From: Cellulomonas sp. B6 | GTDB lineage: Bacteria; Actinomycetota; Actinomycetes; Actinomycetales; Cellulomonadaceae | DNA: 37,966 nt | NCBI RefSeq assembly: GCF_001462455.1 | Contig: NZ_LNTD01000117.1 | Location: 1-37,966, forward strand | Direction of reading: 5' to 3' | In this document: one piece after another, positions 2,848 through 34,305 of the stretch | Layout of the letters: each line of letters opens with the position of its first letter | How positions within the stretch are numbered: position 1 is the stretch's first letter | Notes under the pieces: generated by a model | The model's input: only the letters and a program-made list of their open reading frames with translations | Told to the model about the DNA's origin: nothing | The model's database searches: none | Position numbers and translations under genes: made by a program

Positions 2848-5800
2848 GTGAGCACGTCCGACCCCACCCCCGCCGACGTCCCCGCCGACGCCGACGCCGG
2901 CAGCCCGGCGGCCGACGGTGCGGAGACGCGGCGTCGTGCGCCGCGGCGGCGCGGGGGTCGCGGACGGCGGGGCGAGGGTTCCGCGCGCGAGAGCACGGAC
3001 GGCGTGGCCACGGCCGGTGAGGGCACGGCCGGCGGCGGCGCTCCGCGTCGCGCACGCGACGGGGCACGACGCAATGAGGTACGACGCAATGAGGCACGAC
3101 GCGACGGAGCACGCGGCGACGACTCCGCCCGCGCCGCGGCCCGCGACGCGCACCTGGCCCGCACGGCGCAGGCCCGCGCGGACGTCGCGCTCCCCGCGAT
3201 CGTCTACCCCGAGCAGCTGCCGGTCTCGGCGCGGCGCGACGAGATCGCCGCGGCCCTGCGCGACCACCAGGTCGTGGTCGTCGCGGGCGAGACCGGGTCG
3301 GGCAAGACGACGCAGATCCCGAAGATCGCGCTCGAGCTGGGCCGGGGCCGCGCGGGGCAGATCGGCCACACGCAGCCGCGGCGGATCGCGGCGCGCACGG
3401 TCGCCGAGCGCATCGCCGACGAGCTCGGGGTCCCGCTGGGCGGCGTCGTGGGCTACCAGGTGCGGTTCACGGACGAGTCGAGCGACTCGACGCTCGTCAA
3501 GGTGATGACCGACGGCATCCTGCTCGCGCAGATCCAGCGCGACCCGATGCTGCGGATGTACGACACGCTGATCATCGACGAGGCGCACGAGCGCAGCCTC
3601 AACATCGACTTCATCCTCGGGTACCTCACGCGTCTGCTGCCGCAGCGGCCCGACCTCAAGCTCGTCATCACGTCGGCGACGATCGACTCCGACCGGTTCG
3701 CGCGGCACTTCGGCGCCCCGCCGAGCGACGAGCACCCCGACGGCGTGCCCGCGCCGGTCGTCGAGGTCAGCGGCCGCACCTACCCGGTCGAGATCCGGTA
3801 CCAGCCGCTGTCCCCCGACGACGGCCCGGACCGGGACGTGGTCACGGGCATCACCGAGGCGGTCGACGAGCTCATGGCCGAGGGCCCGGGCGACGTCCTG
3901 GTGTTCCTGTCGGGCGAGCGTGAGATCCGCGACGCCGAGGACGCGCTGCGCGGGTCGCTCGGGCCGCGGGTCAGCGACCCGCGGCACGCGCTGGGCGTGG
4001 ACGTCGTACCGCTGTACGCGCGGCTGTCCGCCGCCGAGCAGCGGCGCGTCTTCGAGCCGCACACGCGCCGCCGCGTGATCCTCGCGACCAACGTCGCCGA
4101 GACGTCGCTGACGGTGCCGGGCGTGCGGTACGTCGTCGACCCCGGCACGGCGCGCATCTCGCGGTTCTCCAAGGCGACGAAGGTGCAGCGGCTGCCGATC
4201 GAGCCGGTGTCGCAGGCGTCCGCCAACCAGCGGTCCGGGCGCTCGGGCCGTGTCGCGCCGGGCGTCGCGATCCGGCTGTACTCGCAGGAGGACTTCGAGT
4301 CCCGCCCCGAGTACACCGAGCCGGAGATCCTGCGCACGTCGCTCGCGTCGGTGATCCTGCAGATGATCGCGGTGGGCGTCGTGACGTCACCCGACGAGGT
4401 CGTCGACTTCCCGTTCGTCGACCCGCCCGACGTGCGCTCGGTGCGTGACGGCGTCGTGCTGCTCACCGAGCTCGGTGCGCTCGAGGAACGCCGGGGCCGC
4501 ACGCAGCTCACCGAGACGGGGCGCGCGCTGGCGCGCCTGCCGATCGACCCGCGCCTCGCGCGCATGGTCGTCGAGGCCGGGCGCCGCGGCGTCGCGCGCG
4601 AGGTGCTCGTGGTGACGGCCGCGCTGTCGATCCAGGACCCGCGCGAGCGGCCCGCCGAGCAGCGCGAGACCGCCGACGCGATGCACCGCCGGTTCGCCGA
4701 CCCGACGTCGGACCTGCTGACCTACCTCAACCTGTGGACGTACCTGCGCGACCGGCAGCGCGAGCTGTCGGGGTCCGCGTTCCGGCGGCTGTGCAAGGCC
4801 GAGCACCTGCACTACCTGCGCGTGCGCGAGTGGCAGGACGTCGTCGCGCAGCTGCGGCAGATGGCCAAGGACCTGGGCTTCGACGCCAAGGGCGCGCCGG
4901 TGCCCGCGTCGTCCGACGTGCCCGCCGCCGCGGGCCACGGCCGCGACGGGCGTCGCGACGGCGGCCGGCACACCCCGACCGGTGCACCCACGCAGGAGTC
5001 CTCCGCCGAGCACACCGGCCCCGACGGCGTGCAGACCCGCTGGTCGTGGGACGGCGACGCGATCCACCGCGCGATGCTGCCGGGCCTGCTGTCGCAGGTC
5101 GGCATGCAGCTCGTCACCGACGTCGCCGCCGGCGCACCCGCCAAGGGCCGCGACGGCAAGCCCCGCCGCCCCGACGCGCGCGCCCGCAACGAGTACCTCG
5201 GCGCGCGCGGCGCACGGTTCGCGATCTTCCCCGGCTCGGGGCTGGCGCGCCGCCCCCCGTCGTGGGTCATGGCGGCCGAGCTCGTCGAGACGTCGCGCCT
5301 GTGGGCGCGGGACGCCGCGCGCGTCGACCCCGCGTGGGTCGAGGAGGCCGCCGCGCACCTCGTGAAGCGCACCTACTCCGAGCCCGCGTGGTCGACGCGC
5401 CAGGGTGCGGCGATGGTCGACGAGAAGGTGCTGCTGTACGGCGTGCCCGTGGTCGCGCAGCGGCGCGTGCTGCTCGCGAGGATCGACCCCGAGCACGCGC
5501 GCGAGCTGTTCCTGCGGCACGCGCTCGTGCAGGGCGAGTGGACGACGCACCACCGGTTCTTCCACGAGAACCGGCGGCTGCTCGCCGAGGCCGAGGCGCT
5601 CGAGGCGCGCGCCCGCCGCCGCGACCTCGTGGTCGACGACGACGCGCTGTTCGACTTCTACGACGCGCGCGTCCCGGCCGACGTGGTCTCGGCGCGGCAC
5701 TTCGACCGGTGGTGGAAGGACGCACGCCGCGACGACCCCGACCTGCTGACGTACACGCGTGACCTGCTGGTCGGCGAGGACGCCGCCGACATCGACGAGC

Positions 5801-7398
5801 AGGCGTTCCCGTCGCGCTGGCCGCAGGGCGACCTGTCGTTCCCGCTGACGTACCAGTTCGAGCCCGGCACCGAGGCCGACGGCGTCACCGTGCACGTCCC
5901 GTTGTCGCAGCTGCCGCGCGTGCGGCCCGAGGGCTTCGACTGGATGGTGCCCGGCATGCGCGCGGAGCTGCTCACCGCGACGATCCGTGCGCTGCCCAAG
6001 CCCGTGCGCGTGCAGCTCGTGCCCGCGCCGGACGTCGCGCGCACGGTCGACGCGTGGCTCGACGAGAACGCCGCGACCTGGGAGGACACGGTGCGCGGGG
6101 CCGACGCGGCGCCGTCGTTCCGGGAGATGTTCGCGCGCGCCGTGCGGGCGCTGCGCGACGTCGAGGTGCCGCCCGACGCGGTCGACGAGGACCGGCTGCC
6201 CGCGCACCTGCGCATGACGTTCCGCGTGGTCGGCGACCGTGGCGGCGTGATCGACGAGGGCACGGACCTGCTCGCGCTGCAGCGCCGCAACGCCGCCCGC
6301 GCGCAGGACGCCGTCGCGTCGGCCGTGCGCACGGCCGTGCGCGCCGCGATGGAGGAGGCGGCCGCGCAGGCCGGCGCGCCGGTTCCCGCGTCCGACGCGA
6401 CCCCCGCACCGGCCACCCCTGGACGGTCCGGCCCGTCGCCCGCCGCGGTCGCGCGAGGGAAGCACGGCCCCGGTCCGACGCTCGAGCGCACCGGACTGAC
6501 GACGTGGCCGGCCGACCTGCCGGGCACCCTGCCCGACGTCGTCGAGGCGCCGTCCGCCGCGGGCGGCGTGGTGCGCGCGTACCCGACGCTCGTCGAGGAG
6601 GGCACGGGTCCGCGCGCGGGCGTCGCGCTGCGCGTGCTCGCCGACGCCGCCGCGGCCGAGTCCGCCGCGCGCCGCGGCCTGCGCCGCCTGCTGCTGCTCG
6701 ACGTGGGCCTCGCGACGCCCCGCGTGACGTCGCGCTGGTCGGGCACGCAGGCCCTCGCGCTCGCGGCGTCCCCGTACGCGTCGACCGACGCGCTGGTCAC
6801 CGACGTGCAGCTCGCGGCCGTCGACCGGATCGTGGCCCGCCACCTGGGCGGCCGGCCCGTGCGCGAGGTCCGCGACGCCGACGCGTACGCGGCGCTGCGC
6901 CAGGCCGTGCGCGACACGCTGGAGGACGACGTGCACCGCGTGGTCGCCGACCTCGTCGCCGTGCTCACGGCGTGGCGCGAGCTCGACGCCGACGTGCGCG
7001 GCTCGGCGAGCCTCGCGCTGCTCGCGACCACGCAGGACCTGCGCGCGCAGTCCGCGGCGCTCGTGCACGACGGGTTCGTGTCCGAGGTCGGCGCCGACCG
7101 GCTGCCCCAGCTGGTCCGGTACCTGCGCGCGGCGCGGCACCGCCTGGCCAAGGCCGCGGAGAACCCGCAGCGCGACGCGGACCTCGCCTGGCAGGTGCAG
7201 GACGTCGAGGACCTGTACGTCGCCGCGCGCGAGCGCGCGCGCACCGCGTCCCCCGACCCGGCGCGCGACGCCGCGCTCGACGACGTGCGGTGGCTGGTCG
7301 AGGAGCTGCGCGTGAGCCTGTTCGCGCAGCAGCTCGGCACGCCCGTGCCCGTGTCGCCGACGCGCATCAGGAAGGCCCTGGCGGCGCTCGGCGCGTGA
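2848..7398 (+). CDS. hrpA: ATP-dependent RNA helicase HrpA (DEAH box)
   Basis: A 1516-residue DEAH-box helicase. RecA-like core: Walker A GETGSGKT (147-154), DEAH (244-247), motif III SAT in LVITSATID, then LVFLSGEREI, NVAETSLTVPGV and motif VI QRSGRSGR. Helicase-associated and OB-type regions follow to about residue 680, then a low-complexity insert (about 685-730), then the very long DUF3418 C-terminal region that distinguishes HrpA from shorter DEAH helicases. HrpA acts on RNA and ribosomes; in E. coli it has been linked to rescue of collided or stalled ribosomes. The first ~115 residues are disordered and Arg/Ala/Gly-rich, probably an RNA-binding tail, and contain a 15-bp tandem repeat. 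GTG at 2848 fits the family, but the gene has no strong Shine-Dalgarno; GAGGAT 8 nt upstream may be a -10 element. Confidence 0.95.
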   Translation: MSTSDPTPADVPADADAGSPAADGAETRRRAPRRRGGRGRRGEGSARESTDGVATAGEGTAGGGAPRRARDGARRNEVRRNEARRDGARGDDSARAAARDAHLARTAQARADVALPAIVYPEQLPVSARRDEIAAALRDHQVVVVAGETGSGKTTQIPKIALELGRGRAGQIGHTQPRRIAARTVAERIADELGVPLGGVVGYQVRFTDESSDSTLVKVMTDGILLAQIQRDPMLRMYDTLIIDEAHERSLNIDFILGYLTRLLPQRPDLKLVITSATIDSDRFARHFGAPPSDEHPDGVPAPVVEVSGRTYPVEIRYQPLSPDDGPDRDVVTGITEAVDELMAEGPGDVLVFLSGEREIRDAEDALRGSLGPRVSDPRHALGVDVVPLYARLSAAEQRRVFEPHTRRRVILATNVAETSLTVPGVRYVVDPGTARISRFSKATKVQRLPIEPVSQASANQRSGRSGRVAPGVAIRLYSQEDFESRPEYTEPEILRTSLASVILQMIAVGVVTSPDEVVDFPFVDPPDVRSVRDGVVLLTELGALEERRGRTQLTETGRALARLPIDPRLARMVVEAGRRGVAREVLVVTAALSIQDPRERPAEQRETADAMHRRFADPTSDLLTYLNLWTYLRDRQRELSGSAFRRLCKAEHLHYLRVREWQDVVAQLRQMAKDLGFDAKGAPVPASSDVPAAAGHGRDGRRDGGRHTPTGAPTQESSAEHTGPDGVQTRWSWDGDAIHRAMLPGLLSQVGMQLVTDVAAGAPAKGRDGKPRRPDARARNEYLGARGARFAIFPGSGLARRPPSWVMAAELVETSRLWARDAARVDPAWVEEAAAHLVKRTYSEPAWSTRQGAAMVDEKVLLYGVPVVAQRRVLLARIDPEHARELFLRHALVQGEWTTHHRFFHENRRLLAEAEALEARARRRDLVVDDDALFDFYDARVPADVVSARHFDRWWKDARRDDPDLLTYTRDLLVGEDAADIDEQAFPSRWPQGDLSFPLTYQFEPGTEADGVTVHVPLSQLPRVRPEGFDWMVPGMRAELLTATIRALPKPVRVQLVPAPDVARTVDAWLDENAATWEDTVRGADAAPSFREMFARAVRALRDVEVPPDAVDEDRLPAHLRMTFRVVGDRGGVIDEGTDLLALQRRNAARAQDAVASAVRTAVRAAMEEAAAQAGAPVPASDATPAPATPGRSGPSPAAVARGKHGPGPTLERTGLTTWPADLPGTLPDVVEAPSAAGGVVRAYPTLVEEGTGPRAGVALRVLADAAAAESAARRGLRRLLLLDVGLATPRVTSRWSGTQALALAASPYASTDALVTDVQLAAVDRIVARHLGGRPVREVRDADAYAALRQAVRDTLEDDVHRVVADLVAVLTAWRELDADVRGSASLALLATTQDLRAQSAALVHDGFVSEVGADRLPQLVRYLRAARHRLAKAAENPQRDADLAWQVQDVEDLYVAARERARTASPDPARDAALDDVRWLVEELRVSLFAQQLGTPVPVSPTRIRKALAALGA
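3064..3108 (+). repeat. 15-bp tandem repeat within hrpA
   Basis: Three tandem 15-bp units start at 3064, 3079 and 3094. The first two differ by one base (GCACGACGCAATGAG versus GTACGACGCAATGAG) and the third is degenerate. The repeat encodes RRNE-type blocks in the disordered N-terminal tail and keeps the frame, so copy-number change would only change tail length. Confidence 0.75.
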
Positions 7399-11656: not shown

Positions 11657-11710
11657 CGCACCCCCGGGGCGTCCCGGGACCTCGGCGCGCGACGAGTTTC
11701 TCCGACCGGC

Positions 11711-11738
11711 TCCACACATCGGGCGTGGGCCGCGTCTT
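11711..11738 (+). promoter_or_regulatory. Possible ECF-type promoter for the repeat/amidoligase/sigma unit
   Basis: CGTCTT at 11733-11738 resembles the CGTC -10 core of ECF sigma promoters. Seventeen nt upstream lies TCCAC (11711-11715), a poor match to the AAC-type -35. It is listed because the operon encodes a SigE-family sigma factor that could act on itself and because the better ECF-like promoter at 34940-34967 has the same spacing. Weak on its own. Confidence 0.25.
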
Positions 11739-11776: not shown

Positions 11777-12343
11777 ATGAGCCCGAGCACCCGCACCACC
11801 CGTCGCACCCGTGGTCGTCGCACCGCCGCCGTCGCCGTGATCGCCGCGACGCTCACGGTCGGCGGCGCCGGCGCCGCCCTCGCCGCGAACCCGTACTCCT
11901 CGGCCACGCGGGCCGTCGAGGACGCGCTCGGCGCGGTCGGCCTGGAGTGGTCGGCCATGCCCGAGGGCTACACCCGCGAGCAGTACGAGGCGTTCTGGGG
12001 CGCGGGCTACACCTCCGCCGACGCCGAGGCCCTCGCCGTGCTGTGGGGCTCCGACGTCACAACGGCGAAGGCCCGCGCGGGCCAGGCCCTGATCGACGGT
12101 GAGGAGGTTCCCGTGCCGCCCAGCACGGCGCCCGGCTCCGAGGACCCGGCCGCGGGCGACGCGGCCGCCGTCGAGGCCCGGCTCGACGCGTTCTGGGACG
12201 CGGGCTACACCTACGGTGACGCCGAGGCCCTCGCGGCGCTGTGGGGCACGGACCTCTCGCAGACCAAGGCGCGCGCCGGCCAGGCCCTGATCGACGGGCA
12301 GACCCTCCCCGTCGCGCCCGGCACGACGACCTCCGCCTCCTGA
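11777..12343 (+). CDS. Secreted protein with two copies of a ~45-residue repeat
   Basis: A 188-residue exported protein. The signal peptide covers residues 1-37 (basic TRTTRRTRGRR, hydrophobic core, AALA-AN cleavage), so the mature part should be released outside the membrane. A conserved block NPYSSATRAVEDALGAVG (38-55) and EWSAMPEGYTREQ (57-69) precede two repeats at about 70-114 and 136-180. Each repeat reads xAFWxAGYTxxDAEALA, then LWGxD, then KARAGQALIDG and PV. The spacer between them is Pro/Ala/Glu-rich. I do not recognise the repeat as a named domain; it is probably two helices plus a turn. A protein with the same blocks is encoded four genes on (14119-14865). GGAGGA at 11767-11772 supports the start. 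The amidoligase gene follows after 37 nt. Confidence 0.75.
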   Translation: MSPSTRTTRRTRGRRTAAVAVIAATLTVGGAGAALAANPYSSATRAVEDALGAVGLEWSAMPEGYTREQYEAFWGAGYTSADAEALAVLWGSDVTTAKARAGQALIDGEEVPVPPSTAPGSEDPAAGDAAAVEARLDAFWDAGYTYGDAEALAALWGTDLSQTKARAGQALIDGQTLPVAPGTTTSAS

Positions 12344-12380
12344 CCCGCCCGCCCGGCACCACCGACGAGACGAGGACCGT

Positions 12381-13520
12381 GTGGACGAGCTGACGCTGCG
12401 GACCGGGTTCGAGATCGAGCTGCTCGCACCCGTGGGGTCCGACCGGCGCACGCTGGCGGACGTCCTGGCCGCGCGCCGCGGCGGGTCCGTGCACCGCACG
12501 TTCCACACGGACAGCGAGCCGTCGGCGGTGCCGGGCGTCGGGGTGTTCCGGCACCTGTCGCCCGCGTTCGACGTGGTCGGTCCGGCGGGCGAGCCCGTCG
12601 CCCGGCTGGTCGACGACATCACGATCGTCGCCGACCTGCCCCGGCCGGGAGCAGGCACGACGACCGGCGCTCCGATCGACCTTGCGACCGGCACGACGGC
12701 CGGCACGACGGTCGGCACGCCCAGCGGCTGGTACCGCCTGCTGTCGGACGACGCGCGCCTGCTGCGGCTCGTCGAGCGGCTGGCCGACCCGCACGCGCCG
12801 ATGGCGACGGTGCTCGACCCGGTCGCCGACCTGTTCGGCGTCCGGGCCGACGTGCTGCCCGCGGCGACGCGGGTCAACGACCCGACGGGGGCGACCGTGG
12901 CGGTCGCGATGCCGCTGCCCGTCGGTCGCGAGCGCCCGTGCGAGATCGTCACCCCGCCGCTCGTGCAGGGCCACCTGCGTGCGCTCGAGGCGCTGCTGGG
13001 GCCCGCGCGGGAGCTCGGGTTCACGGTGCCGCAGGAGGCGGCCGTGCACGTGCACGTCGACGGGGCACCGTTCCGCGACCCGGCCGCGTTCGCCAACCTC
13101 GTGCGGCTGTTCGCGCACTGGCGCGAGCCGTTGTGGGCGGCGCTCGGCACCAACCCCGCGTGCCGGCGGCTCGCCCCGCTGCCGGACGCGCTCGTCGAGC
13201 TCGTCGAGCAGCCGTGGGAGGACGCCGACGGACGGACGGGGTGGCAGCGGCTCCAGGAGGCGGCGCGCGCCGCGGGCGTCACCAAGTACGCCGACGTCAA
13301 CCTCGCGCAGCTCGTCGCGGCGCGGCCGCTGCGGGACACGGTCGAGGTGCGGATCCTGCCCGGCGACGCCGACGCGCACGCGATCGTGCGCCGCGCCGCG
13401 ATCGTCGAGCAGCTGCTGCTGCGCTGCCTCGACCCCGCGCCGGTGCCACGTCCCGGCTCCGACGCCGTGCACGACCCTGCCGCGGCCCTCGCCGACCTGG
13501 CGGCGGTGGTCGCCCGATGA
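12381..13520 (+). CDS. Putative amidoligase (PF12224-like)
   Basis: A 379-residue cytoplasmic protein resembling the putative amidoligase family, related to the glutamine synthetase/gamma-glutamyl-cysteine synthetase fold. Visible hallmarks: an N-terminal TGFEIELLAP (Glu11, Glu13), HTDSEPS, the block RPCEIVTPPL (Glu188), then AAVHVHVDGAPF (His223, His225). Later come TKYADVNLAQL and DTVEVRILPGDADA. Enzymes of this fold use ATP to join an amine to a carboxylate; characterised relatives modify peptides or small molecules, but no substrate is known here. Residues 90-115 are a Gly/Thr-rich insert. The GTG start has GAGGA upstream. The stop overlaps the sigma-factor start (ATGA), which ties the enzyme tightly to a regulator. 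Gamma-glutamyl ligase activity is the main alternative. Confidence 0.72.
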   Translation: MDELTLRTGFEIELLAPVGSDRRTLADVLAARRGGSVHRTFHTDSEPSAVPGVGVFRHLSPAFDVVGPAGEPVARLVDDITIVADLPRPGAGTTTGAPIDLATGTTAGTTVGTPSGWYRLLSDDARLLRLVERLADPHAPMATVLDPVADLFGVRADVLPAATRVNDPTGATVAVAMPLPVGRERPCEIVTPPLVQGHLRALEALLGPARELGFTVPQEAAVHVHVDGAPFRDPAAFANLVRLFAHWREPLWAALGTNPACRRLAPLPDALVELVEQPWEDADGRTGWQRLQEAARAAGVTKYADVNLAQLVAARPLRDTVEVRILPGDADAHAIVRRAAIVEQLLLRCLDPAPVPRPGSDAVHDPAAALADLAAVVAR

Positions 13521-14122
13521 GCACCTGGACCGGCACGGTCGGGCCCGACACCGCGTCCGTCCCGCACGTGGGCTCGCCGACCGAAGGGCCGACCGGCGGC
13601 CCGGCCGCGACCGCCGACGGCCGGGCGCTCGACGACGTCGTCCGCACGCACCTGCCGGGCCTGCTGCGGTACGCGACCGTGCTCACGGGTGACGGGCACA
13701 CCGCGGCCGACCTCGTGCAGGAGGTGCTGCTGCGGGCGCACGTGCGCTGGAAGCGGATCGCGCTGCTCGACCGGCCGGACCTCTACCTGCGACGCATGGT
13801 GACCAACGAGCACCTGTCGTGGCGGCGGCGATGGCACGTGCGCACGGTGCACCCCGCCGACGACGACGTCCTCGCCCACCACGCCGCGCCGCAGCCCGAC
13901 CACGCCGACACGGTCGTGCAGGACGACGCGATGTGGCGGCACCTCGCGGCGCTGCCGCCCCGCCAGCGCACGGTCCTCGTGCTGCGGTACTACGAGGGCC
14001 TGTCCGACGCCGAGATCGCGACGGTCCTCGACACCTCGGGCGCGACCGTGCGCTCGCACGCCTCCCGTGCGCTGCAGGCGCTGCGCCGGACCGACCTGAC
14101 GACCCCTCCGGAGACCCGATGA
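13517..14122 (+). CDS. SigE-family RNA polymerase sigma factor
   Basis: A 201-residue group-4 sigma factor. The first ~40 residues are a variable tail. Region 2 spans about 45-110 (LPGLLRYATVLTGDGHTAADL, then VQEVLLRAHVRWKRI). A short linker leads to region 4 (about 143-192), with LPPRQRTVLVLRYYEGLSDAE and a helix-turn-helix IATVLDTSGATVRSHASRAL. The YATVLTGD and LVQEVLLRAH pattern is typical of the actinobacterial SigE-like subfamily. It is translationally coupled on both sides: its ATG overlaps the amidoligase stop and its stop overlaps the next ATG. By analogy with other group-4 sigmas, the following membrane protein may hold it inactive. The targets are unknown. Confidence 0.9.
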   Translation: MSTWTGTVGPDTASVPHVGSPTEGPTGGPAATADGRALDDVVRTHLPGLLRYATVLTGDGHTAADLVQEVLLRAHVRWKRIALLDRPDLYLRRMVTNEHLSWRRRWHVRTVHPADDDVLAHHAAPQPDHADTVVQDDAMWRHLAALPPRQRTVLVLRYYEGLSDAEIATVLDTSGATVRSHASRALQALRRTDLTTPPETR

Positions 14123-14865
14123 ACGCGCACCGTGCCGCGGGAGACCCCCGGCCGCACCCGACCCCCACCGACGACGAGCTCGCGGAGCGCATCACGCGTG
14201 CGCTGCACGCCCGTGCCGCGGCGCAGGCCACCGACGTGGACGCGCTGACCGCGCGTCTGCACGCCGAGGCCGCCCGACGCGCCGGGCAGCCGGCGCCCGT
14301 CGTCGCGCTGCGCCGCGGCGGGCGCGTCGTCGCCGCGGGGCTGGTGACCGGCACGCTGGCGGTGGCCGGCGCGGGAGCGGCTGCCGCCGCCGACCCGTAC
14401 TCGCCGGTCGCGCGCGCGGTCGAGACGGCGGCGCAGGCGGTCGGGATCCAGTGGTCGGCGATGCCCGAGGGGTACACACGCGAGCAGCACGACGCGGTGT
14501 GGGCCGCCTACGAGGTCGAGGACGTCGAGCGGCTGAGCGCGCTGTGGCAGACGGACCCGATCGAGACCAAGGCGCGCGCGGGTCAGATGCTGCTCGACGG
14601 CGAGGTGCCGCCGGTGGCGCCGCGGACGGGCGCCACGGCGCCGACGCCGGACCCGTCCGCCGAGGAGGCGGCGCTCGAGGCGTACTGGGCGTCGGGCTAC
14701 ACGACGCAGGACGCCGAGGCGCTGAGCGACCTGTGGCACGTCGAGCTGACCGAGGCGAAGGCCCGCGCGGGGCAGCTGCTGGTGGAGGGTCAGCCGGTGC
14801 CGGTGGCGCCGAGCGGCGCGTCGGAGGGCGCCGGCGCCACGGACCGGGCGACACCGTCTCACTGA
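14119..14865 (+). CDS. Membrane protein sharing the repeat; possible anti-sigma partner
   Basis: A 248-residue bitopic protein. A cytoplasmic part (1-68) contains helical DDELAERITRALHARAAAQA and is about the size of an anti-sigma domain. One membrane segment follows (about 69-91), then an outside part. The outside part begins DPYSPVARAVETAAQAVG and QWSAMPEGYTREQ, then two repeat copies at about 124-168 and 186-231, ending KARAGQMLLDG ... and KARAGQLLVEG ... PVAP. These match the secreted protein at 11777, so the two genes are paralogous outside the membrane. Position directly after a sigma gene with an ATGA overlap suggests control of that sigma. No zinc-binding HxxxCxxC anti-sigma motif is present, so the anti-sigma role is inference only. 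Confidence 0.75.
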   Translation: MNAHRAAGDPRPHPTPTDDELAERITRALHARAAAQATDVDALTARLHAEAARRAGQPAPVVALRRGGRVVAAGLVTGTLAVAGAGAAAAADPYSPVARAVETAAQAVGIQWSAMPEGYTREQHDAVWAAYEVEDVERLSALWQTDPIETKARAGQMLLDGEVPPVAPRTGATAPTPDPSAEEAALEAYWASGYTTQDAEALSDLWHVELTEAKARAGQLLVEGQPVPVAPSGASEGAGATDRATPSH

Positions 14866-14911: not shown

Positions 14912-15008
14912 GCGACCATCCAGAGCGGCTGAGAGACCTGGCTCCGCGACGCCGCAGCAACCCCCCTCCACGCGAGGGTGTGGGTGCTTCCGCCAGGAAC
15001 GATGGAGT
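14912..15008 (+). promoter_or_regulatory. SAM riboswitch (SAM-I/S-box type)
   Basis: The conserved S-box segments are present in order: ATCCAGAG with GGCTGAGAGACCTGGC (14918-14942), GCAGCAACCC (14954-14963), GGTGCTTCCGCCAGGAAC (from 14983) and a closing GATGG. P1 is formed by CCATC (14916-14920) and GATGG (15001-15005). The right arm of P1 runs into GGAG (15004-15007), the Shine-Dalgarno of the leader peptide that starts at 15013. No terminator hairpin follows. The likely mechanism is translational: SAM closes P1 and hides the ribosome site. The genes downstream (metF, metE) make methionine, the precursor of SAM, which fits negative feedback. Confidence 0.9.
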
Positions 15009-15012
15009 GACG

Positions 15013-15105
15013 ATGACCGTCTGCGCCCTGGCGACCGACCCCACGTGCAGCCCGTGCTGCCCCGCGAGCGCACGCACCGCGTGCCTCCCGGGCCGCACCC
15101 GATGA
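15013..15105 (+). CDS. Cys-rich leader peptide (30 aa) upstream of metF
   Basis: A short ORF with a good ribosome site (GGAG, 5 nt before the ATG). It starts [16 protein letters not shown] and continues with one more Cys (residue 23), giving five Cys in 30 residues, including adjacent Cys14-Cys15. Its stop codon overlaps the metF start (ATGA at 15102-15105), and metF has no Shine-Dalgarno of its own. The peptide therefore probably couples the riboswitch to metF translation. Cys-rich leader ORFs that sense cysteine by ribosome stalling are known in actinobacteria; the cluster of Cys codons suggests the same here, so metF would respond to both SAM and cysteine supply. It could instead be a purely structural coupling ORF. 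Confidence 0.6.
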
Positions 15106-16181
15106 CCCTCGTGGCCGAGGTCGACGCCCCGCCGCCCGTGCGCGCCGCGACCCGCCGCGCCGAGCAGGCGGGCGCCCTCGACCGGCCCACCGTCTCCTTC
15201 GAGCTGTTCCCGCCCCGCAACCCCGACGCCGCACCGCGGCTCTGGCGCACGGTGCGCGAGCTCGAGTCCGTCGAGCCCGACTTCGTGTCGGTCACGTACG
15301 GCGCGTCCGGCCGCACGCGCGAGACAACGCGGGCGCTCGTGCGGCGGCTGCTGCGCGAGACGTCGCTGACCCCCATCGCGCACCTGACCTGCGTCGGGAC
15401 CTCCCGCGAGGAGGTCACGACGATCGTCGAGGAGTTCCTCGACGAGGGCGTGCGCTCGTTCCTCGCGCTGCGTGGCGACCCGCCCGCGGGCGAGCCCGAC
15501 TGGCGTCCGCACCCCGACGGCGTGGACACGGCCGCCGAGCTGGTCGAGCTGCTGCGCGAGATCGAGGGCCGCCGGTGCGGCCGCAGCGCGTCGCAGGCCG
15601 TGCGCGCCCGCGTCCGTCCGCTGTCGGTCGCGGTCGCGGCGTTCCCGCGCGGCAACCACGCGACGGGCGGCACGCGCGCGCAGGACGTGCAGGCCCTGCT
15701 CGCCAAGCAGGAGGCCGGCGCGGACTTCGCGATCTCGCAGGTGTTCTTCGACGCCGAGGCGTACCTGGGCCTCGTCGACGAGGCGCGCGCGGCGGGCGTG
15801 ACCATCCCGATCGTGCCCGGGATCATCCCCACCACCGACCCGGCCCGCCTGCTGCGCGTGCAGGAGCTCACGGGCGTGCCCGTGCCGCAGCACCTGCTGG
15901 ACCTGCTGGGCGGCACCGACGACCCGGCCGAGCGCCACCGCCGCGGCACGCGCGCCGGCGTCGACCTGGTCAACGGTGTGCTCGACGGCGGCGCACCGGG
16001 CGTCCACGTCTACACGTTCAACACGCACGAGGCCGCGCTCGACCTGCTCGACGGCGCCGACCTCGTCGGCGGTCGGCGCACGACCGTCACCGACCCGGCC
16101 GCACCCCCGACCACCGCACCCACGACCACGGCCGCGCCCACCGGCGCCGCCACGACGACACCGCGAGGGAACCTGTCATGA
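15102..16181 (+). CDS. metF: 5,10-methylenetetrahydrofolate reductase
   Basis: A 359-residue flavoprotein that reduces 5,10-methylene-THF to 5-methyl-THF, the methyl donor for methionine synthesis. The catalytic segment [10 protein letters not shown] (Glu34) is near the start. [10 protein letters not shown], a FAD-contacting [10 protein letters not shown], then FLALRGDPP, the FPRGNHA loop, and [16 protein letters not shown] follow in the family order. The TIM-barrel ends by about residue 325. The rest is a Thr/Ala/Pro-rich tail (about 35 residues) not typical of MetF and probably disordered. The gene lies behind the SAM riboswitch and is coupled to the leader peptide upstream and to metE downstream (ATGA at 16178). 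The start at 15102 follows from that coupling and from alignment of the first catalytic block. Confidence 0.94.
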
Positions 16182-18529
16182 CCAGCACCACGCCCGCCGC
16201 GCCGGCGACCCCGGCCTTCCCCGCCGGCTCCGTCCTCGGCTACCCCCGCATCGGCCCGCGCCGCGAGCTCAAGAAGGCCCTCGAGGCGTTCTGGGCCGGT
16301 CGCACGACGGCCGACGAGGTCGAGGCCGTGGCCGCCGACCTGCGCCGCTCGACCCGCACGCGCCTGGCCGGGCTCGGCCTGGCGACCGACGTGCCCGCGA
16401 TCCCGAGCGCGTTCTCGTTCTACGACCACGTGCTCGACGCCGCCGCGCTGGTCGGCGCCGTCCCCGAGCGGTTCGCGGACCTGCAGGACGCCGACGGCCG
16501 CCTCGACCTGGCCGGCTACTCGACGGTCGCGCGCGGCCGCGGCGACGACCTGCCGCTCGAGATGACCAAGTGGTTCGACACCAACTACCACTACCTGGTC
16601 CCCGAGATCGGCCCGGGCACGACGTTCCGCTACGCGTCGGACCGCCCGGTCGCCGAGTTCACCGAGGCCCTCGCCGACGGCGTCCTGACGCGGCCCGTCG
16701 TCGTCGGGCCCGTGACGTTCCTCGCGCTGGCCAAGCCCACCGAGGACGCGCCCGCGGGCTTCCACCCGCTCGACCGCCTCGACGACCTGCTGCCGGTCTA
16801 CGCGCGCCTGCTCACCGAGCTCGCGGCGGCGGGCGCGACGTGGGTGCAGCTCGACGAGCCCGCGCTGGTGTCCGACTCGATCGGCGTGGACGCGGCGGCG
16901 CTGGCCGAGGCCACGACCCGCGCGTACCGTGCGCTCGCGACCGAGCTCGCACGTCCCGAGCGGCCGGCGGTCCTCGTCGCGGCGCCCTACGGCGACCTCG
17001 GCGCGGCGCTGCCGGTGCTCGCGGCCACCGACGTCGAGGGTCTCGCGATCGACCTCGTGCGCGGCGACGCGCCCACGGTCGCGGTCCCCGGCCTGGCCGG
17101 CAAGACGCTGGTCGGCGGCGTGGTCGACGGCCACAACATCTGGCGCGCGGACCTCGACGCCAAGCTCACGGTGCTCGAGCGGCTCGCGGACCTCGGCGCG
17201 GCCGCCGTCGCGGTCGGCACGTCGACGTCCCTGTTCCACGTCCCGCACACGCTCGACGACGAGCCCGCGCTCGACCGCACGCTCGTGCAGTGGCTCGCGT
17301 TCGCCGACGAGAAGGTCCGCGAGGTCGCGACGCTCGCGACGGGCCTGACCGAGGGCCGCGCGGCTGTCGCCGAGCAGCTGCGCGCGGCGTCGGACGCGGT
17401 GCGCAGCCGGGCGGAGGCACCCGGTGTGGTCCGTCCCGAGGTGCGCGATCGTGCCGCCGCCCTCACCGACGACCAGTTCCGCCGCGGCCCGTTCGCGGCG
17501 CGCAAGGCCGCGCAGGCCGAGCGCCTGCGGCTGCCGGCGCTGCCGACCACGACGATCGGCTCGTTCCCGCAGACGCCCGAGATCCGCAAGGCCCGCGCGG
17601 CGTTCGGCAAGGGCGAGCTCACGGCCGCGGCGTACGAGGACGAGATGAAGGCGGAGATCCGCCGCGTCGTCGAGCTGCAGGAGCGCATCGGCCTGGACGT
17701 GCTGGTGCACGGCGAGCCCGAGCGCAACGACATGGTGCAGTACTTCGCCGAGAACCTCGACGGGTTCGCGGTCACGCAGAACGGCTGGGTGCAGTCGTAC
17801 GGCTCGCGCTGCACGCGGCCGTCGATCCTGTGGGGCGACGTGTCGCGGCCCGCACCCATCACGGTCGCGTGGACCACGTACACGCAGTCGCTCACCGACA
17901 AGCCCGTCAAGGGCATGCTCACGGGCCCGGTGACGATCCTCGCGTGGTCGTTCGTGCGCGACGACCAGCCGCTCGGCGACACCGCGAACCAGGTGGCGCT
18001 CGCGCTGCGCGACGAGATCGCGGACCTCGAGGCCGCGGGCATCGGCATCGTGCAGGTCGACGAGCCGGCGCTGCGCGAGCTGCTGCCGCTGCGCGAGAAG
18101 GACCACGCCGCGTACCTCGACTGGTCGGTGCGCTCGTTCCGTCTCTCGACGGCCGGCGTGCGCCCGGACACGCAGATCCACACGCACCTGTGCTACTCGG
18201 AGTTCGGCGAGATCATGGACGCCATCGACGGCCTCGACGCGGACGTGACGAGCATCGAGGCGGCCCGTTCGAAGATGGAGATCCTCGGCGACATCGCGGC
18301 GGCGGGCTACCCGCGCGCGGTCGGCCCGGGCGTCTACGACATCCACTCGCCGCGCGTGCCGTCGCAGGCCGAGGTGACCGAGCTGCTCACCGAGGCAGTG
18401 CGGACCATCGACGTCGACCAGCTCTGGGTCAACCCGGACTGCGGCCTCAAGACCCGCCGCTACGAGGAGGTCACGCCCTCGCTCGAGCACCTCGTCGAGG
18501 CGACCCGCACGGTCCGCGCGACGCTCTGA
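16178..18529 (+). CDS. metE: Cobalamin-independent methionine synthase
   Basis: A 783-residue enzyme that transfers the methyl group of 5-methyl-THF-polyglutamate directly to homocysteine. Both duplicated barrels are complete: [21 protein letters not shown] at the N-terminus and [17 protein letters not shown] at the start of the catalytic half. Zinc ligands correspond to His670 and Cys672 in [10 protein letters not shown], Glu694 (by a constant offset of 29 from E. coli) and Cys755 in [14 protein letters not shown] at 16166-16170 and the ATGA overlap with metF support the start. As part of the metF operon it falls under the SAM riboswitch. A GC-rich hairpin follows. Confidence 0.97.
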
Positions 18530-24210: not shown

Positions 24211-24519
24211 ATGAGCGTGCGCACGGAGCGGGCGGGCGGCACCCGCCGGGCGGAGGTCGTGGGACGGTTCGACGCGCACGAGGTGACGCAGGCCCAGGGG
24301 CTGCTGCGCGAGCTCGTCGAGGGTGACGCCCCCGTGCTGGAGGTCGACCTGTCCGGGGTGACGTTCGTCGACTCGAGCGCGCTCGCCGAGCTGGTCGCGC
24401 TGCGGCGCACCGCGCTCGCGCGCGGCGGCTCGTTCACGCTCACCGGGGCGTCGGAGCCGGTGCGGACCATCCTCGAGGTCACGGACCTCGCGGCCGTCCT
24501 GCTGCCGGACGCCGGGTGA
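24211..24519 (+). CDS. STAS-domain anti-sigma factor antagonist (first copy)
   Basis: A single-domain STAS protein of 102 residues like SpoIIAA/RsbV. The core reads LEVDLSGVTFVDSSALAELV, with the phosphorylatable Ser at 55 or 56 next to Asp54. Such proteins bind an anti-sigma kinase when unphosphorylated and let the sigma factor go. Partners are encoded next: a PP2C phosphatase (24530) and an RsbW-like ATPase (25738). The start is preceded by a GGGAAGGACGGGA segment. The gap to the glycosyltransferase is 55 nt, so it probably belongs to the same transcript. Confidence 0.9.
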   Translation: MSVRTERAGGTRRAEVVGRFDAHEVTQAQGLLRELVEGDAPVLEVDLSGVTFVDSSALAELVALRRTALARGGSFTLTGASEPVRTILEVTDLAAVLLPDAG

Positions 24520-24529
24520 GGGGCAGGCC

Positions 24530-25741
24530 GTGACCACGGGGACGCCGGACGCACCGGAGATCATGGACGCGCTCGTCACGGCGCTCGACCGCCTGCACGC
24601 GCTGCGGCTGCTGGCGTCGGTGCTCGACCGGGCGCTCGACCCGCCGGAGGCGCGCGCGACGCTGCTCGCGATCGCGTCCGACCTCACGGACGCCGACGTC
24701 GTGGCCGTGCTCGGGCCCGAAGACGTGCGTGCGACCGCCGGCGCCGACGCGGCGGGGGTGGTCGAGCGCGCCGCGGCGGCGGCCGCGACGACCGCACCCG
24801 GCCGGGTCGCGGTGCTCGACGGCGGCACGACGGTCGTGCAGGTGCCCGCCGAACCCGACGACGACCTGCGCGCGGTCGTCGTGGCCCGCCCGGCCGGACC
24901 CCCGTTCGGCACGGGCGACCTCGACCTCGTCGACGTCGTCGTGGCGACCGCCGTGATGGCCCGCACCATCTGGCGCCTGCACACGACGGCCGTCGAGCGG
25001 GCGGCCGTGGCGCGCGAGCACGAGGCTGCGTCGACCGTCGCGCAGGCCGTGCTCGCGCCCGCGCCGCCCGTGGTGCCCGGGCTCGACGTCGCGGCGCGCT
25101 CGGTGCCCGCGCACGTCGCGGGCGGGGACCTGTACGCGTTCGCCGGGCGCGACGGCGGGCTGTGGTTCGCCGTGGGCGACGTGGCGGGCAAGGGCCTGCC
25201 CGCGGCGGTCGTCATGAGTCGCATGATCGCCGAGTGCCTCGCGGCGTTCAGCAGCGTGGAGCCGGGCGACGTCGAGGCGGCGACGCAGCGGATCGACCGG
25301 GCCGTCCACGACTGGCTCGTCGACATCCGGCGGTTCGTGACGCTCGCGGTCGGGCACGTCGACCCGGTGAGCGGCGTGGCGCGCGTGTGCAACGCGGGTC
25401 ACTCGCCCGTGCTGCTGGGATCGGGCGCGCACCTGGACGTGCTGCGGGCGACCTCGCCGCCGCTCGGCGTGCTGCCCGACCTGGCGCACGCGGTGCGGGA
25501 GGTCGTGCTGGCCCCCGGCGACACGCTGTGGGTCGGTTCCGACGGGCTCGTGGAGCAGGAGGACGCGGCGGGGGCCATGCTCGGGTACGACCGCTTCGCG
25601 GCGCTGTGCGCACGCTGCGCGCGGGGCACCGCGGCGGGCAGCCTCGCGGCCGTGCTCGACGCGGTCGCGGCGCACGGCCGGGGCGTGGCGCAGTCCGACG
25701 ACCGCACGCTCGTCGTCGTCCGACGGGAGGCGTGGGCATGA
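24530..25741 (+). CDS. SpoIIE/RsbU-type PP2C phosphatase with N-terminal sensory region
   Basis: A 403-residue protein. Residues 1-165 form a GAF-like region (LLASVLDRALDPPEARATLL, later LDLVDVVVATAVMART). A coiled helix (about 155-180) leads to a SpoIIE-type phosphatase domain. Metal-binding motifs are present: GGDLYAFAGRD, FAVGDVAGKGLPAAVVM, CNAGHSPVLL, GSDGLVE and QSDDRTLVVV. It should remove phosphate from a STAS antagonist, here encoded on both sides. The N-terminal region probably senses a signal. GTG 24530 follows the STAS gene after 10 nt, and the stop overlaps the next start (ATGA). Confidence 0.93.
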   Translation: MTTGTPDAPEIMDALVTALDRLHALRLLASVLDRALDPPEARATLLAIASDLTDADVVAVLGPEDVRATAGADAAGVVERAAAAAATTAPGRVAVLDGGTTVVQVPAEPDDDLRAVVVARPAGPPFGTGDLDLVDVVVATAVMARTIWRLHTTAVERAAVAREHEAASTVAQAVLAPAPPVVPGLDVAARSVPAHVAGGDLYAFAGRDGGLWFAVGDVAGKGLPAAVVMSRMIAECLAAFSSVEPGDVEAATQRIDRAVHDWLVDIRRFVTLAVGHVDPVSGVARVCNAGHSPVLLGSGAHLDVLRATSPPLGVLPDLAHAVREVVLAPGDTLWVGSDGLVEQEDAAGAMLGYDRFAALCARCARGTAAGSLAAVLDAVAAHGRGVAQSDDRTLVVVRREAWA

Positions 25742-26160
25742 TCCGGGAGATCGACCTGCCGGTGGACCACTCGGCGCTGAGCGTGCTCGAGGACTGGTTC
25801 ACGGCGCTGTTCGCGGACGCCGGCTGGTCCAGCCCGGGCCGCGTGCGTACCCGCATCGAGCTCGCGACGCACGAGATCTGCGTCAACGTGGTGGACCACT
25901 CCGGCCTGACGCGCTGCGACCGGCTGCACGTGCGCGGCGCGGTCGACGACCACGGGGTGACGGTGCACGTGAGCGACGGGGGCGCCGTGCCCGACCGCAC
26001 GCGGATGGCGGTCGAGCCGGTGCCGGGCGTGCCCCAGGAGGGCGGGTACGGGCTGATGATCGTCCGCAAGCTCGTCGACGACTTCGAGCACACCCGGGAG
26101 GGCACCGTGAACACGTGGCGGCTGCACGTCCACCGACCACCCGCGGGGGGTGGACGGTGA
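25738..26160 (+). CDS. RsbW-like anti-sigma ATPase/kinase
   Basis: A 140-residue GHKL ATPase of the RsbW/SpoIIAB type. The N box is ELATHEICVNVVDHS (41-55), with Asn50 as Mg ligand. The G1 box is VSDGG (78-82), followed by GGYGLMIVRKLVDDF as lid and G2. Such proteins phosphorylate STAS partners and sequester a sigma factor or other target. No sigma gene lies in this operon, so the target is elsewhere or is not a sigma. Translationally coupled to the phosphatase (ATGA) and to the next STAS gene (GTGA at 26157). Confidence 0.92.
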   Translation: MIREIDLPVDHSALSVLEDWFTALFADAGWSSPGRVRTRIELATHEICVNVVDHSGLTRCDRLHVRGAVDDHGVTVHVSDGGAVPDRTRMAVEPVPGVPQEGGYGLMIVRKLVDDFEHTREGTVNTWRLHVHRPPAGGGR

Positions 26161-26501
26161 CCCCGACGTCGTTGAGCGTGACGCGACCCGCACCCGGCCT
26201 CGCGGTGGTCGAGGTCGCGGGCCGGTTCGACGCGCCCGCCGCGCTCGAGCTGCGGCGCGCGATCGACACGTTCGCGGTCGGGGGCGTCGACACGGCGGTG
26301 GTCGACCTCACGGAGGCGACGTTCGTCGACTCCGCCGGGCTCGCGGCGGTCGTGCACGCGCACCGCGTGTGCGAGTCGGTCGGGGGCACGGCGGTGGTGT
26401 GCGAGCCGCGCTCGGCCGACGCGCGGCGCGTCTTCGAGCTGACGATGCTGGACCGCGTGCTGCGCATGGTCACCGTGCGGGGGGCGGGGGACGCCGCATG
26501 A
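26157..26501 (+). CDS. STAS-domain antagonist (second copy)
   Basis: A 114-residue STAS protein with VVDLTEATFVDSAGLAAVV; the phospho-acceptor Ser59 follows Asp58. It differs clearly from the first STAS copy in sequence, so the two probably have different partners or roles (for example one a substrate of the kinase, one a sensor or antagonist). The GTG start is inside the preceding stop (GTGA). Its own stop overlaps the receiver start. A longer frame exists to 26115 but would overlap the preceding gene without support. Confidence 0.9.
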   Translation: MTPTSLSVTRPAPGLAVVEVAGRFDAPAALELRRAIDTFAVGGVDTAVVDLTEATFVDSAGLAAVVHAHRVCESVGGTAVVCEPRSADARRVFELTMLDRVLRMVTVRGAGDAA

Positions 26502-26851
26502 GGGCGCTGGTCGTCGACGACGACACCGTGTCCCGGCTGGTCCTCGCGCACATCCTGCGCAAGGCCGGCTGGGACGTCGCGCAGGCGGACGACGTGGCGG
26601 CGGCGGTCGCCGCGGCGGGCGGTGCGGACGTGGTGTTCTGCGACTACCGCCTGCCGTCCGGCACGGGGCTCGACGTGCTGGCCGGTGTGCGGGTCACGTG
26701 CACCGACGTGCCGTTCGTGCTGGTCACAGGCGTCGTGGAGCACGCGGACGTGGGCGACCGCCCGCCGGACGGGGTGGTGGCGCTGCTGAGCAAGCCCGTG
26801 AGCACGGCGACGGTCGCGCGGGTGCTCGCGGGGCTCGGGCCGGCCGCCTGA
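26498..26851 (+). CDS. Single-domain response regulator (receiver only)
   Basis: A 117-residue CheY-like receiver: VVDDDTVSRLVL (acid pocket Asp7-9), phospho-acceptor Asp49 in VVFCDYRLPSGTG, Thr77 in FVLVTGVVE and Lys99 in LLSKPVS. There is no output domain. It is the last gene of the partner-switch operon, coupled by ATGA. It is a natural end point for the phosphorelay of the divergent hybrid kinase with Hpt, and might regulate the phosphatase or STAS proteins by binding. That link is inferred from gene order only. Confidence 0.92.
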   Translation: MRALVVDDDTVSRLVLAHILRKAGWDVAQADDVAAAVAAAGGADVVFCDYRLPSGTGLDVLAGVRVTCTDVPFVLVTGVVEHADVGDRPPDGVVALLSKPVSTATVARVLAGLGPAA

Positions 26852-28654: not shown

Positions 28655-29026
28655 TCACGGGTTGAGCGCGCGGTACTCCTCGGCCGTCATCACGGGCCCG
28701 GTGGAGGTGACGTCGACCCGCAGCAGCCAGCCGGCGCCGAACGGGTCGGCGTTGACCACGGACGGGTCGTCGACCGCCGCCTGGTTGACCTCGGACACCG
28801 TACCGGACACCGGCGAGAACAGCTCCGACACCGACTTGGTGGACTCGATCTCGCCGATGACGGCGCCCTGCTCGACCGTCGAGCCGACGGCGGGCAGCTC
28901 GAGGAACACGATGTCGCCGAGCGCGTCGGCGGCGACCGACGTGATGCCGATCGTCGCGGGCGACGCGTCGTCGACCCACTCGTGCTCGGCGGTGTACTGC
29001 AGCGTGGTGGGCAGCTCGGCGGTCAT
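28655..29026 (-). CDS. gcvH: Glycine cleavage system H protein
   Basis: A 123-residue lipoyl carrier of the glycine cleavage complex. It shuttles the aminomethyl group between the P, T and L proteins on a lipoyl-lysine. The lipoyl site is [10 protein letters not shown] (Lys64); [10 protein letters not shown] at the N-terminus and [17 protein letters not shown] are family hallmarks. The ATG at 29026 is preceded by TGGAG. It lies 79 nt after gcvT in a gcvP-gcvT-gcvH order. gcvL (lipoamide dehydrogenase) is not in the window, as expected because it is usually shared with other complexes. Confidence 0.97.
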
Positions 29027-29105
29027 CGTGGCTCCAGGGGTGCGTCGGGGGCGGTGCGGGTGCGGGGGTGCTGCGTGCGGCGCTGTGCGGGCGGCGGCTG
29101 CGCCG

Positions 29106-30275
<1,170 letters not shown>

Positions 30276-30319
30276 GTCGTCTCCCGGGGTGGTGGGGGTG
30301 GCGGGCGTGGCGGGGCCGG

Positions 30320-33271
<2,952 letters not shown>

Positions 33272-33323: not shown

Positions 33324-33583
33324 CTCTGTCATCCACCCGCGCAGGGGTGACCTGAGAGTTTTGCCGGTCCGCCATGAGCGCGTCCCACGGGACGGGCTCC
33401 GGGGCGCGCCGACTTGCACCGTCGGTGGGCGCCGGACCTGGCCGGCGCCGCTTTCCAGAGTTGCCTGGCCGCGGCGGTACGGGGGCCTGAGAGATTCCCG
33501 GGGAGGGTTGCTCCTTCGGCGTCCCGCGCTGCCGTCCGCACCGGTGTGCGGGCGGACGATCGGCGGGAGCTCTCCCGCCGCGG
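33324..33583 (-). promoter_or_regulatory. Tandem glycine riboswitch upstream of gcvP
   Basis: Two aptamers on the minus strand. Aptamer 1 (33583-33469) has P1 arms CCGCGGCGG and CCGCCGCGG, then GGGAGAGC, GCCGAAGGAGCAA and ATCTCTCAGGC. Aptamer 2 (33460-33324) has P1 arms CTCTG and CAGAG, with GGAAAGCGG, ACGGTGCAAGTC and AACTCTCAGGTCACC. The gap between the aptamers is 8 nt, as is usual. The expression platform is the last 52 nt before the gcvP GTG, with GGGGAGCCCC as a small hairpin. Glycine should activate expression of its own breakdown pathway. Confidence 0.95.
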
Positions 33584-33603
33584 TTCGAGCAGCGTGTTCA
33601 GTT

Positions 33604-33657: not shown

Positions 33658-34305
33658 TCAGCCGACGCCGACGACCGCCTCGGGCGTGACCCCCACCGTG
33701 ACGGCGAACTCGGCCGCCTGCTGGTCGGACCAGCGCACCTCGGCGGGGACCTGGACGTACAGGTACGACCCGTCGGGCTGAGCGACGGACACGCCCTGCG
33801 ACGGGGAGGTCCCGGTCGTGGCGAACACCAGGACGTCCCTGCCCTCCGCCGTGACGTGCACGGCGTCGTCCGGCGCGCCCGGCAGGTACTGCTCCTCGGT
33901 CAGCATGATCGCGATGCGGCCCTCGAAGCTGCCGGGCCGGGCGCCGTCGTCGTCGTGCGCGGCCAGGACCAGGTCGCCCGCGTGGGACGTGAGCACGCGC
34001 CAGCCCTCCGGCACGACCTCCAGCTCGAAACCCGTGACGTCCTCGCCGGTGAAGGCCACGAGCGGCACCGCGGCGGCCGGTGCGGTCGTGCCCCGCGGCA
34101 GCGCGAGCGACAGCCCGACACCGAGCACGGCCACCACGCCCACCCCGGCGAGCCGGCCCAGGGTGCGGCGTCGGCGTGCGGCGCGCCCGCGCCGCACGTC
34201 GTCGTCGAGCAGCTCGTCACCGGGGACGGCGGCGACCGCGGTCGCCGCACGCGTCAGCAGGTCGGTCAGGGCGGTTGCGTCGTGCGGGACGTCGTCGCGG
34301 GTCAT
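33658..34305 (-). CDS. Membrane protein paired with a SigE-family sigma factor
   Basis: A 215-residue bitopic protein. The cytoplasmic part (1-48) has a helical TALTDLLTRAATAVAAVPG and an Arg-rich RGRAARRRR before one membrane segment (about 49-70, LAGVGVVAVLGVGLSLALP). An extracytoplasmic domain of about 145 residues follows, with FELEVVPEGWRVLTSHAGD and GRIAIMLTEEQYLPG. I do not recognise the outer domain. It overlaps the sigma gene by ATGA, the same layout as the pair at 13517/14119, but the outer domains are unrelated. The position suggests a regulator of the sigma factor. No zinc anti-sigma motif is visible. Confidence 0.75.
   Translation of the reverse strand: MTRDDVPHDATALTDLLTRAATAVAAVPGDELLDDDVRRGRAARRRRTLGRLAGVGVVAVLGVGLSLALPRGTTAPAAAVPLVAFTGEDVTGFELEVVPEGWRVLTSHAGDLVLAAHDDDGARPGSFEGRIAIMLTEEQYLPGAPDDAVHVTAEGRDVLVFATTGTSPSQGVSVAQPDGSYLYVQVPAEVRWSDQQAAEFAVTVGVTPEAVVGVG

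Follow-up and report, generated by a model that had tools for sequence, protein, structure and literature searches.

A conserved amidoligase module with exported repeat proteins and a candidate anti-sigma factor in Cellulomonas

Contig NZ_LNTD01000117.1 of the actinomycete Cellulomonas sp. B6 (assembly GCF_001462455.1), analysed over its positions 1 to 37,966 and called the window below, carries a compact four-gene unit at 11777-14865. The unit encodes a probable secreted protein (SEC), an amidoligase (AMI), a SigE-family extracytoplasmic function (ECF) sigma factor (SIG) and a probable membrane anti-sigma factor (MEM); SEC and MEM share a repeat. Here we report that these genes almost certainly belong to a conserved functional module. 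Its core is AMI together with an exported repeat protein, and the sigma factor and MEM are an add-on. A single lysine of the repeat, Lys29, is nearly always kept beside an intact AMI and is often lost elsewhere. We think it fairly likely that AMI acts through this residue, which would serve either as acceptor or as the binding site for AMI's product.

All four genes lie on the forward strand. SEC (11777..12343, 188 amino acids) has an apparent signal peptide, read by eye from hydropathy and an AxA motif, and two repeats at 11987..12124 (81.4 bits, repeat profile A1) and 12185..12322 (86.5 bits, repeat profile search). AMI (12381..13520, 379 amino acids, GTG start) is assigned to Amidoligase_2 by PF12224 and to the glutamine-synthetase/GCS fold by prediction. 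SIG (13517..14122, 201 amino acids) matches TIGR02983 and contains sigma regions 2 and 4. MEM (14119..14865, 248 amino acids) owes its putative role to position and topology: a cytoplasmic helical part, one transmembrane segment and two extracytoplasmic repeats, found by the same profile search at 14491..14622 (72.7 bits) and 14677..14814 (79.1 bits). By hydropathy each repeat protein has a single hydrophobic segment towards its N-terminus, at about residues 17-37 in SEC and 70-91 in MEM. The two proteins are 55% identical across 170 amino acids (E 6e-52), and their homology spans the signal-peptide or transmembrane segment as well as the repeats. An initial annotation had proposed four genes of these kinds, and the open reading frames, PF12224, TIGR02983 and the two repeats each in SEC and MEM agree with it. 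The 37-nucleotide gap that it gave between SEC and AMI, and the ATGA overlaps at the AMI/SIG and SIG/MEM junctions, are exact in the sequence.

How widely does the module occur? In the family, the AMI profile matches 25 of 150 genomes, all within the 30 matched by a MEM search; two of those 30 (G061, G086) were set aside as chance matches. Three of the 28 repeat-bearing family genomes lack a detected AMI (G053, G133, G143), and their contexts are fragmented, less complete or decayed. At order level, 20 of 297 genomes have AMI and 21 have the repeat, and all 20 AMI genomes share the repeat (hypergeometric 3e-30, kinship ignored). The sole order genome with the repeat and no AMI, G322, is 76% complete. 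Across the phylum only 2 of 396 genomes have AMI, and repeats are present in both; a third repeat match, G623, is half-length with arginine at position 29 and was omitted from the counts. PF12224 itself, searched in 50 chosen genomes, finds one gene in each of 21 AMI genomes and none in the other 29. Every AMI genome therefore carries the repeat, which bears out the earlier proposal of a link between the enzyme and the repeat proteins.

Individual loci tell the same story for the repeat and a different one for the sigma factor. Repeat units are present at 51 of 51 AMI loci within the fetched stretch, a figure that partly reflects selection, since in many cases a repeat match led to the locus being fetched; the genome counts given earlier provide the unselected comparison. 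(Locus counts omit the duplicate records L044, which equals L073, and L147, which equals L041.) A sigma gene is found at 40 of the 51, one of them decayed (L067); L047 and L067 were assessed by tblastn. It is absent from the fetched stretch at nine (L046, L048, L074, L148, L151-L154 and L166, of which L152-L154 are close kin), and the remaining two, L081 and L155, are cut by contig ends. Three gene orders occur: SEC-AMI-SIG-MEM (type A, as in the window), SIG-MEM-(SEC)-AMI (type B) and SEC-AMI (type C). Because repeats occur without sigma at nine loci and rarely without AMI, we place AMI and the repeat protein at the core. The initial annotation would have been refuted by repeat proteins that commonly lack the amidoligase and sigma genes, and half of this came true: the pairing of AMI and repeat stood, with AMI missing from 3 of 28 family and 1 of 21 order repeat genomes, and the sigma gene is lacking at 9 of 51 AMI loci. 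Its view of the genes as one operon-like unit is favoured by the recurrence of the same gene order across many genomes, more than chance would give.

The number of repeats per protein ranges from 1 to 5. In 23 complete units mean identity is about 71% for AMI and SIG and about 50% for SEC and MEM. Gene maps came from a purpose-built gene finder whose training set was the AMI and SIG genes, and it misplaces some starts, including those in L043, L057, L063 and L068. Among genes up to seven positions from AMI, no further family recurs at more than 12 of the 50 loci; by eye the commonest neighbours are generic, namely short-chain dehydrogenases (12 loci), ABC ATPases (11) and alcohol dehydrogenases (9). 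A mobile origin was considered and rejected: AMI and two repeat proteins have no plasmid match and no viral contig was found, the phage records being four with 26% coverage and 28-29% identity. In a genome of the same genus, L067 (6600-15450) holds a decayed unit in which some 6-7 kb lies between SEC and AMI. By eye the intervening genes encode a hydrolase, a trypsin-like protease and NTPases, and the end of SIG and the start of MEM appear deleted.

The repeat is predicted to be a three-helix unit of 46 residues. The consensus of 135 units is near YEAFWDAGYTxEDaxaLaxLWgxDxxETKARAGQmLLDGexlPVaPg, with D13, L17, W21, K29, G33, G39 and P43 near-invariant. AlphaFold2 models three helices in each MEM repeat, in blocks of pLDDT 91-97; the whole MEM model has a pTM of 0.43, so the mutual arrangement of its parts is unsure. 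No Pfam or NCBIfam family matches the repeat above cut-off. One of 17 A4 members gives a weak match (Phage_Mu_F, E 0.0096), and the other listed matches are weaker. Against PDB sequences the best E is 0.053, to a segment of TFIIA; Foldseek against PDB structures finds nothing at E<=0.001, and VIA, a second-look aligner, gives a best Z of 3.5, to a designed protein. We rejected a UBA-like reading suggested by the AGY loop, for which support was no better than Z 2.3 (UBA of c-Cbl, VIA). By sequence, the domain appears new, lying outside Pfam and NCBIfam.

AMI scores 61.8 bits against PF12224 (cut-off 22), and Amidoligase_2 is its only Pfam family at E up to 1. Its model (pLDDT 81.5, pTM 0.81) aligns by VIA to YbdK and plant GCL (Z 10.8 each), Dop (10.4) and PafA (8.6), with glutamine synthetases at about 8-9; the top of the list holds only carboxylate-amine ligases and their kin. 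The glutamine-synthetase/GCS fold predicted for AMI rests on these VIA alignments. Residues E13, E46, D78, D79, R183, E188, H223, D227, K302, D305, E322 and R324 are retained at every locus that covers them. (Conservation was read on open frames at 51 loci; E13, E46, E188, H223, K302, E322 and R324 are covered in 49 to 51.) We take the conserved positions to be the catalytic residues, and AMI looks catalytically intact. H225 is retained in 44 of 50 loci; six type B amidoligases (L157-L162) have asparagine in place of this second histidine of the HxH motif, a possible sign of changed metal or substrate handling. In a fixed-pattern check each AMI motif was found in 40 to 48 of 50 gene calls, and wrong starts, contig ends or allowed substitutions account for most of the rest, the exceptions being H225N and changes in L163. 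AMI shows no signal peptide or transmembrane segment (best 19-residue hydropathy 1.08). Its chemistry may have a model in PafA, which, according to PMC3511204, attaches Pup to lysine via a phosphorylated carboxylate; lysine amidation by this fold therefore has precedent.

Which part of the repeat would AMI act upon? The only lysines of SEC are K98 and K164, those of MEM are K151 and K214, and all four occupy position 29 of a repeat. This pattern alone proves little, because the wider set shows no clear shortage of lysines at other positions. Next to an intact AMI, 1 of 175 units has a residue other than lysine at position 29, versus 7 of 22 units elsewhere (Fisher 6e-7); the seven comprise 2 of 7 units where AMI is undetected, 3 of 10 in repeat genes away from AMI and 2 of 5 beside the frameshifted AMI of L163. 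Counted by locus the loss is 1 of 51 versus 5 of 10 (L080, L163, L165, L167 and L168; p 2e-4). The 197 usable units omit L067, L169 and units under 30 letters, and the linked group includes L054 and L070, where contig ends leave AMI on another contig, and the moved SEC of L039. D13, L17, W21, G33, G39 and P43 do not differ between the AMI groups (all p at least 0.1), so the fold seems to be kept while the lysine goes. At L163 (5950-7072, G283), AMI is frameshifted and has lost the histidine and aspartate of HTDSEP (H42, D44), and two of three MEM repeats lack Lys29.

Arginine stands at position 29 in none of 187 scored units and in none of the Lys29 exceptions, the half-length match in G623 being outside this set. 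Because no arginine replaces the residue even though lysine makes up only about 12-14% of lysine plus arginine in neighbouring genes, this suggests that the amine itself matters. The pattern at Lys29 marks out the repeat itself, and not only a diffusible ligand, as a likely target of the enzyme. Direct modification of Lys29 by AMI is a narrower claim, which we consider credible and would not yet favour outright.

The sigma factor scores 143.4 bits against the TIGR02983 SigE family (cut-off 141.55) and matches PF04542 and PF08281, for regions 2 and 4. We built a tree of 42 sigma genes from AMI-module loci and 18 paralogs from the Cellulomonas sp. B6 genome; its branches are long and its deeper order is unsure. 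One clade holds the type A sigmas (30 rows, support 96/94), and L167 and L149 join it at 100/100. The ten type B and D sigmas form a separate clade (100/98) that sits nearer two Cellulomonas sp. B6 paralogs with modest support (95/79). On this tree the simplest reading is that a sigma factor was recruited twice. In the second lineage, too, a gene for a repeat membrane protein lies directly downstream. SIG-MEM pairs also occur away from AMI in G218 (L167) and G235 (L164), again overlapping by 4 nucleotides; both genomes hold a repeat-AMI locus as well. That MEM is well positioned to be a regulator of SIG is supported, and we regard an autoregulated sigma factor with MEM as its anti-sigma as probable. 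Around residues 70-95 of MEM (14326-14400) an AxA motif is retained before DPYS, matching the likely signal-peptidase site of SEC; cleavage there might offer a route to SIG release.

Each sigma lineage has its own conserved ECF-type motif, which makes autoregulation likely. In the window, CTCCACA-N16-CGTCTT at 11710..11738 on the forward strand matches the pattern of a probable SIG target. Upstream of AMI, CTCCACA-N16/17-CGT[CT] occurs in 25 of 30 type A loci, where the remaining loci would predict 0.009 per region; at two of the five loci that miss it, the sequence upstream is short or absent. In the type B lineage the sigma genes carry GCAACC-N16-CGTC in 10 of 10 loci (0.02 expected), twice just inside a called start that is probably wrong, and this motif is missing from L149 and L167, which belong to the other lineage. 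In L039 (Cellulomonas phragmiteti), SEC has moved 4.3 kb and keeps a copy of the type A motif, and a motif and an apparent 3' remnant of SEC still precede AMI (5799-5960 and 12563-13088). The strict pattern CTCCACAN{16,17}CGTYTY, searched in 50 genomes, revealed no clear further targets; it misses several unit promoters, and weaker sites could escape it. It sits at the unit in 13 of 25 unit-bearing genomes, scattered matches occur at about the rate of a reversed control, and one extra match in Cellulomonas sp. B6 (C12:16517) looks like chance.

The following explanation would join these results. AMI, as an ATP-dependent ligase of the glutamine-synthetase/GCS fold, would act on the repeat proteins in the cytoplasm, forming an amide bond at Lys29 of each repeat by a carboxylate-to-lysine joining analogous to that of PafA. 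SEC, given its apparent signal peptide, would then be exported to perform the extracytoplasmic work of the module. MEM, to judge by its architecture, would hold SIG at the membrane while its outer repeats report the state of the repeat (modified, occupied or damaged), and a change in that state would release SIG. Finally, SIG would transcribe the operon from CTCCACA-N16-CGTCTT, as the conserved motifs suggest, in a positive loop; no wider regulon is apparent in the Cellulomonas sp. B6 genome. As a self-contained autoregulated module, this four-step account could equally well stand or fall. Its boldest form, a new protein-modification and surveillance system in which a glutamine-synthetase-fold ligase amidates one lysine per exported repeat and a repeat-bearing anti-sigma reads the modification and drives its own operon, is offered tentatively.

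Several observations weigh against this explanation. For the enzyme, Foldseek finds nothing for the AMI model at E<=0.001, its best hit being a glutamine synthetase with E 0.07, and a comparison of AMI with PDB sequences gives nothing significant. For the coupling, AMI is absent from G322, G133 (83% complete) and the fragmented G143, where sequence may be missing. For the anti-sigma role, MEM matches no anti-sigma family in Pfam; common ancestry of the N-termini of the two MEM types was tried and rejected (hhalign probability 6.8%, not significant). The Lys29 grouping was made post hoc, after the exceptions were seen, and units from related genomes are not independent. A check in two sets of fresh genomes (12 and 13) met no previously unseen repeat-bearing genome. 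One unit of L048 lacks Lys29 beside an intact AMI, and the lysine is kept at five (L072, L077, L078, L079 and L164) of the ten loci that have no intact AMI linked to them. Moreover, the dependence of Lys29 on AMI fits binding of an AMI product equally well.

That last point leads to the strongest alternative, a serious rival in which the product of AMI is a small amide-linked molecule or a peptide, the repeats of SEC and MEM bind it outside the cell, and bound MEM releases SIG. Lys29 would here be a ligand-contact residue and would therefore drift once AMI is gone, so the lysine losses are accounted for, as are the repeats common to SEC and MEM. AMI is also close to small-molecule ligases such as GCL, and the ABC-transporter ATPases near 11 of 50 loci, a further point against direct modification, could export the product. 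No second enzyme or transporter family, however, passes 12 of 50 loci, which speaks for the adjacent protein as substrate more than for a pathway of several enzymes, and it is because no other enzyme family recurs that we prefer direct modification of the repeat. SEC-AMI forms exist without an adjoining sigma gene, and in G163, G195, G236, G301 and G694 repeats are found beside AMI only; sensing therefore cannot be the whole purpose. We consider this alternative possible, on the unlikely side.

A second alternative makes the repeat an envelope-binding or adhesive domain that senses wall or surface stress, with AMI modifying an envelope polymer in an otherwise ordinary ECF envelope-stress operon. 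The autoregulated ECF layout and the use of one domain in secreted and membrane copies would suit it. Yet the repeat has no above-cut-off match in Pfam, whether to a wall-binding family or to any other, AMI shows neither signal peptide nor transmembrane segment, and the specific link between Lys29 and AMI is left unexplained; we judge this alternative improbable. Mere co-transcription, with MEM not controlling SIG, would suit the missing anti-sigma family match but not the SIG-MEM pairs away from AMI (L164, L167) with their 4-nucleotide overlap, nor the second sigma lineage that also directly precedes a repeat membrane gene, and is very improbable.

Elsewhere in the window, a SAM riboswitch lies directly after MEM (14913-15019, forward strand; RF00162, 51.6 bits) and separates the module from the next operon, whose genes at 15045-18529 read by eye as methylenetetrahydrofolate reductase and metE. 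A glycine riboswitch (33465-33587, reverse strand; RF00504, 51.5 bits) precedes genes at 28655-33271 that read by eye as glycine cleavage components. A second SigE-family sigma gene (TIGR02983, 150.7 bits) with an overlapping membrane-protein-like gene lies at 33658-34913 on the reverse strand, and that membrane protein is without the repeat. A partner-switching-like set at 24211-26851 on the forward strand comprises, by eye, STAS proteins, a phosphatase-like and a kinase-like protein and a response regulator.

Through this module a member of Amidoligase_2, a family for which we found no described substrate in the literature searched, gains a defined protein partner and a candidate residue as its target. 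If Lys29 is truly the target, this would be a new lysine modification of exported proteins. SIG with its readable promoter motif is a ready reporter. The initial annotation knew of no described system of this form, and we likewise found none in the open-access literature, most subscription papers lying outside that scope.

How does the module compare with known systems? Amidoligase_2 (PF12224) corresponds to amidoligases reportedly predicted by Iyer et al. in 2009. AMI agrees with that family in fold and in a score above cut-off, and differs in being tied to an extracytoplasmic repeat and often to a sigma factor, an association not found in the literature searched. Pupylation is another close system: PafA and Dop share the glutamine-synthetase/GCS fold with AMI (model Z 8.6 and 10.4), and PMC3511204 describes PafA as coupling a carboxylate to protein lysines. 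In Pfam, however, AMI matches Amidoligase_2 and no Pup ligase family, and its partner is an exported repeat protein, with no Pup-like partner known here. Multi-core graspetides, which are ribosomally synthesized and post-translationally modified peptides, also set a ligase beside a protein of several similar units (microviridin AMdnA/AMdnC, PMC5934393). AMI has the glutamine-synthetase fold and not ATP-grasp, Amidoligase_2 being its only match and its alignments being to GS/GCS folds, and its units are predicted folded 46-residue domains behind a signal peptide or transmembrane segment. With SigE-type ECF/anti-sigma operons the module shares sigma regions 2 and 4, a membrane partner and a conserved motif with a CGT -10 element; such a CGT and autoregulation are typical of ECF sigma factors, according to PMC8103513. 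It departs from them in its type A -35 element, which is CTCCACA and not AAC, in a membrane partner that shares its repeat with a co-encoded secreted protein, and in having an amidoligase in the unit. The parts, ECF regulation and a glutamine-synthetase-fold ligase, are thus of known kinds, whereas their combination and the repeat appear to be new.

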